This document shows positions 6,246-17,437 of a stretch of 64,000 bases of DNA, piece after piece (position 1 is the stretch's first letter; each line of letters begins with the position of its first letter). A program made the translations under genes and the position numbers. The stretch is taken from positions 1 through 64,000 of the forward strand of contig PKED01000030.1 of the NCBI GenBank assembly GCA_002863155.1, in the 5' to 3' direction. The DNA comes from Sphingomonadaceae bacterium (GTDB lineage: Bacteria; Pseudomonadota; Alphaproteobacteria; Sphingomonadales; Sphingomonadaceae). Below the pieces are notes generated by a model. The model was not told where the DNA came from and did not search any database. It worked only from the letters and a program-made list of their open reading frames with translations.

Positions 6246-7730
6246 ATGGCCACCAAGAACGCCGAGGCGATTGCCGCCGCCAACAAGAAGTATGAATGGG
6301 GTTTCAGCTCGGACATTGAACAGGAATTCGCGCCCAAGGGGCTGAGCGAGGACACCGTCCGTTTCATCTCCGCGAAGAAGGGCGAGCCCAAATGGATGCT
6401 CGACTGGCGGCTGAAGGCGTATCGCCACTGGCTGACGATGGAGAGCCCGGACTGGGCGAAGCTCGACCTCGCGCCGATCGATTATCAGGACGCCTATTAT
6501 TACGCCGAGCCCAAGGCCAAGCCGAAGCTGGGCAGCCTTGACGAGGTCGACCCGGAAATCCTGCGCGTGTACGAAAAGCTTGGCATCCCGATCGCCGAGC
6601 AGAAGCTGCTGGCGGGCGTCGAGGGCGGGGAGGAAGGCGGCCTGCCGCAGCGGCGTGTCGCGGTGGATGCGGTGTTCGACAGCGTGTCGGTCGCGACCAC
6701 CTTCCGCAAGGAGCTGGAGGCCGCCGGCGTCATCTTCCGCAGCATCAGCGAGGCGATCCGTGAATATCCGGAGCTGGTGAAGAAGTGGCTGGGGAAGGTC
6801 GTCCCCATGCACGATAACTACTTCGCCGCGCTCAACTGCGCGGTCTTCAGCGACGGGACGTTCGTCTATATTCCAGAGGGCGTGCGCTGCCCGATGGAGC
6901 TTTCGACCTATTTCCGCATCAACGCCGAGAATACCGGCCAGTTCGAACGCACGCTGATCGTCGCCGACAAGGGCGCCTATGTCAGCTATCTCGAAGGCTG
7001 CACCGCGCCGATGCGCGACGAGAACCAGCTGCATGCCGCCGTGGTCGAACTGGTCGCGCTCGACGATGCCGAGATCAAATATTCGACCGTGCAGAACTGG
7101 TATCCAGGCGACGAGAACGGCGTCGGCGGCATCTATAATTTCGTGACCAAGCGGGCGCTGTGCCAGGGCCGGAACAGCAAGGTCAGCTGGACGCAGGTCG
7201 AAACCGGCAGCGCGATCACCTGGAAATACCCGAGCTGCGTGTTGGCGGGCGAGAACAGCGTCGGCGAATTCTATTCGGTCGCGGTCACCAACAACCGCCA
7301 GCAGGCCGATACCGGCACCAAGATGATCCATCTCGGCAAGGGTTCGCGCTCGACGATCGTCTCCAAGGGCATTTCGGCGGGGCACAGCGACAACACCTAT
7401 CGCGGGCTGGTGCGCGTGAGCCCGACTGCGGAGGGCGTGCGCAACTTCACCCAGTGCGACAGCCTGCTGCTGGGCGATCAGTGCGGCGCGCATACCGTGC
7501 CCTATATCGAGGTGCGCAATCCCAGCGCGCAGATCGAGCATGAGGCGACGACGTCGAAGATCAGCGACGACCAGCTGTTCTACGCGATGCAGCGCGGGCT
7601 GGATCAGGAGGCGGCGGTGGCGCTGATCGTCAACGGGTTTGCACGCGAAGTGCTGCAGCAGCTGCCGATGGAATTCGCGGTCGAGGCGCAGAAGCTGCTT
7701 GGGATTTCGTTGGAAGGCTCGGTTGGATGA
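6246..7730 (+). CDS. sufB: Fe-S cluster assembly protein SufB
   Basis: Canonical SufB sequence incl. [42 protein letters not shown] and C-terminus [19 protein letters not shown]. Confidence 0.97.
7680..7730 (+). repeat. sufB 3'-end copy 1 (17 codons [16 protein letters not shown]-stop)
   Basis: Same peptide as 8195-8245; 11/51 nt differences, all synonymous. Confidence 0.95.
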
Positions 7731-8245
7731 ATCTGACGCCGACCGACGATGCGAAACGCCTTCAAACCCCTCCCCTCCAGGGGAGGGGCAAGGGGTGGGG
7801 CCTATCCGCAAACACCCTCGCTGAATTAAACAAACGCGCCCACCAAATGCGCAACGACCCCACCGAGCCGGAAAAGCGGTTGTGGCGCAACCTGTCGAAT
7901 AGCCAGCTTGGCGGATGGAAGTTCCGCCGCCAGCAGGTGATTGGCTGGTTCATCGCCGATTTCGTTTGCCCGTCGGCCAAGCTGATTGTGGAAGTCGATG
8001 GCGATACGCATGATGCAGAGGCAGATGAGGTTCGTGATGCTGCGTTGATGCGACGAGGCTACCGGGTGCTGCGGGTCACGAACGAGGATGTGATGCGCAA
8101 TGTCGAGGGCGTGAAGCTCGCGATCCTTCGGGCGTTGGAGAATGTGGACAGCCCCCACCCCAACCCCTCCCCTGAAGGGGAGGGGCTTGAGAAGGTCGAG
8201 GCGCAGAAGCTGTTGGGGATTTCGCTTGAGGGGAGCGTGGGGTGA
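7727..8245 (+). CDS. DUF559-type endonuclease-domain protein (PD-(D/E)XK/VSR-like) embedded in the suf operon
   Basis: [48 protein letters not shown]...[17 protein letters not shown] overlaps sufB stop (ATGA); an internal ATG at 7847 is an alternative start. Confidence 0.85.
7764..7800 (+). repeat. Family C palindromic repeat, copy C1, left flank of DUF559 gene 1
   Basis: AACCCCTCCCCTCCAGGGGAGGGGCAAGGGGTGGGG; inverted relative at 8152-8188. Confidence 0.8.
8152..8188 (-). repeat. Family C palindromic repeat, copy C2 (inverted), right flank of DUF559 gene 1
   Basis: Reverse complement AAGCCCCTCCCCTTCAGGGGAGGGGTTGGGGTGGGG closely matches C1. Confidence 0.8.
8195..8245 (+). repeat. sufB 3'-end copy 2, in frame with the DUF559 ORF and ending in a GTGA overlap with the next gene
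   Basis: Encodes [16 protein letters not shown]-stop again, 515 bp downstream of copy 1. Confidence 0.95.
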
Positions 8246-8583
8246 GCTTCGCCGGGGCCATGATTGTGGCGGTTGCGGCTCCGGCTGCGGGGCAGGCGGT
8301 CATCCCGTCGCGCTTTGCGGGCGAATGGCAACGCGCGATTACGCAATGCGGCGGCGACCAGGAAAACACACTCCGTATCTCCAGTAGCAGCCTGACTTTT
8401 TACGAAGCTGTATTCGAACCGCGGAAGGTGCGGCGCAGTACGTCGAGCGTGCTGGTGGCAGATGGGATGTGGCATGAGGATAGGAACGTCCGCGTGCGGT
8501 TGACGCTAACCTTGTCGCACGACCGCAAGCACCTCGTCGTCCGTTCGCCCTGGTGGACGAATCACTTGGTCAAATGCGCTTGA
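8242..8583 (+). CDS. Hypothetical exported protein within the suf operon
   Basis: GTG start overlapping the previous stop; signal-like N-terminus; stop 1 nt before the sufC ATG. Confidence 0.6.
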   Translation: MSFAGAMIVAVAAPAAGQAVIPSRFAGEWQRAITQCGGDQENTLRISSSSLTFYEAVFEPRKVRRSTSSVLVADGMWHEDRNVRVRLTLTLSHDRKHLVVRSPWWTNHLVKCA

Positions 8584-16886: not shown

Positions 16887-17375
16887 CTACTCCGCTGCAA
16901 ATACCTCCCCGATGCGGGGAGGGGGACCGCCCGCAGGGCGGTGGAGGGGTGATCGCGCATCGCATTTCGCGACGATCATTCGGATGACGGCGTCAAGGTG
17001 GGTCAGCACGTCTCTTGCCGGAATCCGCAAGGTGCTGAAACCCAGCCGAGCAAGCGTCTGATCGCGATGTTGATCGCGTTCCGGCCTGTCGCCGCGTGAA
17101 TGCGCCTCGCCGTCGATCTCGATCGCGAGCCGCGCCTCGAGACAGGCAAAGTCGAGGCTGAAATCGCCGATAGGGTGCTGGCGACGGAATTTGAATCCGC
17201 GGGGGCCTTTGCGGAATTCGCGCCAGAGCACGACTTCGGGGAGGTTTCCGGAACGGCGTTCGCGCTTCGCCAGCTTGAAGGCGGCTGGGCTTGCGGCGAG
17301 CACCCCTCCACCACGCGGCGTTGCCACGCGGTCCCCCTCCCCGTGTCGGGGAGGTGTTTGAGACCGATCGCCCAC
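16887..17375 (-). CDS. DUF559-type endonuclease-domain protein, second copy in window
   Basis: VVLWREFRKGPRGFKFRRQHPIGDFSLDFACLEARLAIEIDGEAHSRGD...RLGFSTLRIPARDVL; both ORF ends lie in palindromic repeats. Confidence 0.85.
   Translation of the reverse strand: MGDRSQTPPRHGEGDRVATPRGGGVLAASPAAFKLAKRERRSGNLPEVVLWREFRKGPRGFKFRRQHPIGDFSLDFACLEARLAIEIDGEAHSRGDRPERDQHRDQTLARLGFSTLRIPARDVLTHLDAVIRMIVAKCDARSPLHRPAGGPPPRIGEVFAAE
16900..16951 (+). repeat. Family D palindromic repeat, copy D1
   Basis: AATACCTCCCCGATGCGGGGAGGGGGACCGCCCGCAGGGCGGTGGAGGGGTG. Confidence 0.85.
17301..17359 (-). repeat. Family D palindromic repeat, copy D2 (inverted)
   Basis: Reverse complement AAACACCTCCCCGACACGGGGAGGGGGACCGCGTGGCAACGCCGCGTGGTGGAGGGGTG. 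Confidence 0.85.
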
Positions 17376-17379
17376 CGCT

Positions 17380-17437
17380 CAATACCTCCCCGGAACGGGG
17401 AGGGGGACCATCGCGTCAGCGATGGTGGAGGGGTCAT
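17380..17437 (+). repeat. Family D palindromic repeat, copy D3
   Basis: CAATACCTCCCCGGAACGGGGAGGGGGACCATCGCGTCAGCGATGGTGGAGGGGTCA; forms an inverted doublet with D2. Confidence 0.85.

Follow-up and report, generated by a model that had tools for sequence, protein, structure and literature searches.

Analysis of a 64,000-nucleotide stretch of contig PKED01000030.1 from a Sphingomonadaceae bacterium (the window), together with other bacterial genomes, suggests that a DUF559 gene and the two inverted repeats around it probably form a single mobile element, autonomous and some 460 bp long, with terminal inverted repeats (TIRs), and that repeats found without the gene are its non-autonomous, MITE- or REPIN-like offspring. 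The evidence, all of it read from sequence, consists of TIR architecture; a match between repeat class and enzyme clade; copy number that depends on the gene; several copies within one genome; a copy derived by deletion; filled, empty and solo sites; and purifying selection on the gene. On this reading the system would belong among autonomous palindrome-flanked elements with miniature derivatives.

A DUF559 gene enclosed by inverted repeats

The window contains two DUF559 loci with the following features:

16887..17375, minus strand: DUF559 gene 2 (PF04480, E 4.8e-23), encoding a PD-(D/E)XK protein resembling Vsr and homing endonucleases
16962-17276, minus strand: DUF559 domain of gene 2, by domain placement
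16900..16949, plus strand: repeat D1, the right-hand end on the gene strand, with an outer hairpin CCTCCCC/GGGGAGG, an inner hairpin and a mirror block GGAGGGG
17303..17358, minus strand: repeat D2, the opposite end, inverted relative to D1 and laid out in the same way
17381..17433, plus strand: repeat D3, an additional unit beyond the D1-D2 pair
16898..17360, minus strand: putative mobile unit of 463 bp comprising D1, the DUF559 gene and D2, with arms at 16898-16930 and 17328-17360
7765..8188, plus strand: second DUF559 element (gene 1; domain 7826-8140), enclosed by inverted repeats distinct from those of gene 2, directly after a SufB-like gene

The arrangement at gene 2, with D1 and D2 inverted around a minus-strand gene and D3 forming a further D2/D3 doublet, is as a preliminary description had it; the repeat cores are exact, and comparison bears out that their family is distinct from that of gene 1. 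D1 and D2 pair over 33 nt with 91% complementarity at a distance of 397 nt, and D2 and D3 over 29 nt with 90% complementarity at a distance of 22 nt. Homologous elements have a median length of 470 bp, and extra units like D3 occur in 20 of 111 of them. The first and last codons of gene 2 fall inside the repeats, so that the earlier statement that the repeats run into both ends of the reading frame holds for the translation; as a property of the gene it mostly looks like read-through, because an in-frame start at SD spacing within the repeat is found in only 12 of 100 homologues. A translation start supplied by the repeat, which the window gene would fit (GTG 8 nt after GGGGAGG), was rejected on the same count.

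Each G/C-rich repeat is more elaborate than the simple palindrome first supposed, comprising two hairpins and a tail: from outside to inside, AAAT, the CCTCCCC/GGGGAGG hairpin, GGGACC, a second hairpin and GGAGGGG, which in D1, D2 and D3 is the exact mirror of GGGGAGG. The orientation of the unit is constant, with the hairpin outermost and the tail toward the gene. One strand therefore carries a pyrimidine, a purine and a mirror purine block, as in the published PIT/TM repeats, and this block order is, on paper, how an intrastrand purine triplex is laid out (PMC4666352): a single strand could form a hairpin along which a third strand lies, the second hairpin serving as the loop. That second loop measures 20-26 nt in D1-D3 and contains a hairpin, against 1-6 nt in the published definition, which C-type repeats at other DUF559 genes match. 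No GTAG tag is present in D1-D3 or in the consensus of class-A ends.

The 3.29 Mb genome holds seven copies of the repeat core CCTCCCCGNNNCGGGGAGGGGGACC, of which three lie at the gene 2 locus with zero mismatches. The same pattern read backwards has no match in this genome or in 200 others, which argues that the repeat is not a chance occurrence, and the forward pattern is present in 79 of the 201 genomes, with a maximum of 119 copies (G068); genome-wide repeat statistics for the window genome (G000) come from pattern searches. The four remaining copies in the window genome make up two gene-less inverted doublets (L008, L010), one with a spacing of 95 bp between two genes resembling two parts of metH and the other with a spacing of 145 bp on contig 17.

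Generality of the association

All four DUF559 genes of the window genome lie between inverted repeats whose sequence varies by locus, which extends the earlier claim that the two window loci independently combine a nuclease with inverted, locus-specific palindromes. When both flanks of each gene were scored for inverted complementarity against control stretches, inverted repeats flanked 111 of 123 DUF559 loci in Sphingomonadaceae (0 of 239 controls) and 43 of 68 loci in a phylum-wide sample (0 of 135 controls); the remaining 25 phylum-level loci had no TIR by the flank complementarity score. DUF559 genes thus do not usually lack flanking palindromes. Among named loci, 34 of 41 pass the flank threshold, including all seven of Prevotella type (Prevotella, Hallella, Hoylesella) and one each from Armatimonadetes, WS1 and Reyranella. 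One genome (G170) has 14 DUF559 matches and is a possible place for recent activity.

Matching of repeat class, enzyme clade and copy number

The proposal that each DUF559 clade has its own palindrome family was borne out: on a tree of 130 DUF559 domains (about 107 columns, with weak support at many forks), repeat class changes 11 times, compared with 30.0 times when shuffled (0 of 200 shuffles as low). Copy number depends on the gene as well. Two or more copies of the class-A core are found in 48 of 66 genomes with the matching gene-2 clade versus 16 of 135 without it (OR 20, p=7e-18); comparisons within genera run 19:2 in the expected direction (p=2e-4); and 20 listed genomes without a DUF559 match contain 0-1 copies each. 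Palindromes equally abundant without DUF559, the outcome named beforehand as telling against the association, are accordingly not what is observed. The E. coli-type motif, considered across the phylum, reaches at least three copies in 17 of 41 genomes with DUF559 versus 7 of 153 without (OR 15, p=2e-8). Some genomes are rich in repeats that have no close matching DUF559 gene (G012, G173, G124, G401, G484, G542): G012 carries 93 cores without a close member of the clade, and G401, G484 and G542 contain the motif of E. coli type without any match to DUF559. Such orphans may reflect gene loss or another mobiliser.

Signs of mobility

Of 25 close repeat pairs, 23 have the heads outside and two are of the opposite kind; among the former, seven are spaced at 417-459 bp, as in gene-bearing elements, and 16 at 77-176 bp, too short for the gene. 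Genome G047 contains three dispersed whole-unit copies, two of which are 91.6% and 97.9% identical to the third over about 510-516 bp, with similarity stopping near the element ends; a fourth lacks part of its interior but retains both ends, so that TIRs are accompanied by internally deleted copies as in transposons and their MITEs, and there are many end-only copies besides. Rearrangement has also affected the site of one G047 copy, since its flanks lie at different places in two congeners. The site occupied in the window, between a carboxyltransferase gene (pccB-like) and a DUF4440-like gene, is empty in at least 11 relatives, where the gap measures 5 bp, holds a single hairpin in three and holds full elements in others; 15 of the elements here point the same way as the upstream gene and eight the opposite way. 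The gene names sufB, pccB, pntA and metH used here were read from translated products, only the carboxyltransferase domain being confirmed by Pfam.

Several observations stand against a mobile element: the absence of target duplication and of observed movement, the concentration of loci at 13 sites, the orphan-rich genomes, the loci without TIRs and the one-sided arrangement at E. coli ycjD (below). Duplications of 2-8 nt outside the ends are not in excess over shuffled pairs, which would be explained if entry proceeds, as proposed below, through repair and not through staggered-cut integration. Long flanking direct repeats were rejected as a general signature: they lie outside the TIRs at 7 of 111 loci only, the rest being extra palindrome copies. 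At one locus (L122 in G049), a 57-bp direct repeat of 96% identity starts 4 bp outside both element ends and is a rare candidate for a long target duplication.

The enzyme and alternative explanations

Purifying selection acts on the DUF559 gene, with dN/dS of 0.08-0.24 (median 0.17) among the most closely related pairs. The confident AlphaFold model of the protein (pLDDT 89.8) is nearest in structure to a Neisseria endonuclease-like protein and the homing endonuclease I-Bth0305I (fold matches 3hrl, 3r3p), and more weakly to Vsr; the match to I-Bth0305I (3r3p) has an E value of 6.7e-5 by sequence and 3.5e-4 by Foldseek. Residues D50, E61, D63 and H67 are invariant among 30 homologues and E22 is nearly so, so that both a related fold and conserved active-site residues link the family to homing endonucleases. 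A role as a defence system was discarded, PADLOC giving only marginal matches.

This kinship raises the alternative that cleavage by the nuclease at a small set of conserved operon junctions in element-free alleles is followed by copying of the locus into them through homologous recombination, the repeats being protection, terminators or by-products. The distribution of sites is in keeping with such homing: 101 of 130 DUF559 loci are concentrated at 13 sites, and insertion site follows the protein tree (25 changes versus 62), a pattern that resembles site-specific spread or inheritance more than free transposition. The count at the main site (34 loci) is inflated, since seven of the 34 were found by searching for its neighbour gene. 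The gene 1 locus is in keeping with it as well, because the tail of the SufB-like gene is duplicated on the far side of the element: its last 15 codons and stop (7684-7731) recur at 8198-8246 with synonymous differences only. Homing does not, however, account for gene-less doublets and end-only copies scattered elsewhere, for near-identical G047 copies at unrelated sites, for several repeat classes and both orientations at one site, or for a repeat class that tracks the enzyme, and we regard it as unlikely to be the main explanation.

Intercistronic hairpins may also be retained for their own sake. The metH-type junction (L301-L330) holds gene-less inverted triplex-type doublets in 22 of 30 species of the genus (five class A, ten C-type, seven E-type), other palindromes in six and a small reading frame in two; the other palindromes, such as GTCACCCCGGCGAAGGCCGGGGCC, are unrelated to the triplex type (L302, L306, L313, L317, L321, L327). 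The place is conserved and the repeat family is exchanged between species, so that these junctions are either insertion hot spots or sites of a useful hairpin. One could accordingly suppose that DUF559 is a Vsr-like mismatch nuclease of the host, that the repeats persist as intercistronic RNA hairpins, and that their association is a passenger effect. The metH junction, with its doublets in differing families, and the pntA site, where all 18 DUF559 genes are co-directional with the operon, lend themselves to selected hairpins, and Caulobacter crescentus VsrA, for which VSP repair has been proposed, carries DUF559 (PMC12907096). Host repair nevertheless leaves unexplained why DUF559 genes lie between inverted repeats in several phyla, why repeat class matches the enzyme and why copy number depends on the gene, and is highly improbable as a whole. 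Site concentration and the exchange of families at metH junctions keep both homing and selected hairpins alive as partial truths.

That the repeats are moved in trans by another transposase, whether a Y1/RAYT or an insertion sequence, with DUF559 as cargo, we consider extremely unlikely: Y1_Tnp has a match in 9 of 18 repeat-bearing genomes tested, but none in G000, G047, G068 (119 copies), G096, G044, G173, G055, G081 or G151, several of them repeat-rich, in a survey that covered Y1 transposases, and the recurrence of one gene between matched repeats in different phyla does not look like chance cargo.

Comparison with known repeat systems

The mobile-element reading invites comparison with the RAYT/REP/REPIN systems or REPtrons (Bertels and Rainey 2011, PMC3116915; PMC3733652), a parallel already drawn in the preliminary description, which stands for the architecture and fails for the enzyme family and the palindrome sequence. 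In both systems a small nuclease-type gene lies between inverted palindromes, the palindrome class is specific to the gene lineage (here repeats flank 111 of 123 and 43 of 68 loci, and class follows the tree), and gene-less inverted doublets are built of the gene's own repeats. RAYTs are Y1 HUH tyrosine transposases, whereas the enzyme here is a PD-(D/E)XK nuclease, and the GTAG tag of REPs contrasts with a triplex-type unit that lacks GTAG and has a mirror purine block. A further difference is how strongly DUF559 elements recur at a small number of operon sites. On the differences in enzyme family and tag, the DUF559 element may be said to work like RAYT/REPIN without being a member of that system.

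I-Bth0305I (EDxHD/Vsr-like) is related to DUF559 in fold and sequence but is intron-encoded, in contrast to the free-standing gene with terminal inverted repeats described here. C. crescentus VsrA and E. coli Vsr share the PD-(D/E)XK fold, and VsrA the DUF559 domain, but a repair role is proposed or known for them and repeats are not described.

More than 260 bacterial genomes contain triplex-type repeats in many copies, and these repeats have been tied to genome instability (PMC4666352); Holder et al. 2015 described these PIT/TM repeats without an associated mobility gene and called their origin unclear (PMC4666352). Like the repeats at DUF559 genes, they consist of pyrimidine, purine and mirror purine blocks, are intergenic and often form inverted pairs; they differ in having been published as orphans, and the second loop of class A exceeds their published limit. 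The published motif itself is nevertheless associated with DUF559: its exact, E. coli-type form brackets DUF559 genes at two loci in G410, in G502 and around the broken gene of G437, and it adjoins ycjD, an annotated DUF559 gene, in E. coli. Motif no. 9 of E. coli K-12 (1351204-1351239) lies 168 bp downstream of ycjD, and a second, degenerate unit, complete in strain KE40, touches the end of the gene. This locus (L211, L287, L288) is weaker evidence, because both units are on the one, downstream side. The gene is present in 3335 of 5426 genomes (at least 80% coverage). Its absence was rejected as a clean empty site, fabI being followed in two strains without ycjD by a TetR regulator and RND efflux genes. 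No link between DUF559 or COG2852 and repeats was found in the titles, abstract openings and passages of a literature sample in which subscription journals are thinly covered.

Proposed mechanism and implications

If it is the nuclease that mobilises or processes the repeats, as we infer, the DUF559 protein would recognise ends of its cognate class in the form of a folded strand, for instance while the DNA is being replicated or transcribed, and would nick at or beside their outer boundary (consensus AAAT|CCTCC). Once released or copied, the unit would then enter a gap, usually right after a stop codon within an operon, by repair, and recombination or deletion between the ends would yield doublets and solos.

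The broader proposition, that DUF559 (COG2852) proteins represent a new type of mobilising enzyme, in which one PD-(D/E)XK nuclease acts on ends able to form triplexes, and that together with their non-autonomous derivatives they are the source of bacterial PIT/TM repeats including those of E. coli K-12 (ycjD), seems to us evenly balanced between true and false. DUF559, a common family of unknown function, acquires a specific, testable link to triplex-type repeats in at least Pseudomonadota and Bacteroidota, and a widespread class of bacterial repeats without a known enzyme would gain a candidate for its mobilisation. If DUF559 does mobilise repeats, REP-type systems would have arisen twice, with unrelated enzymes and palindromes, and the orphan repeats of E. 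coli together with ycjD would provide a laboratory model.
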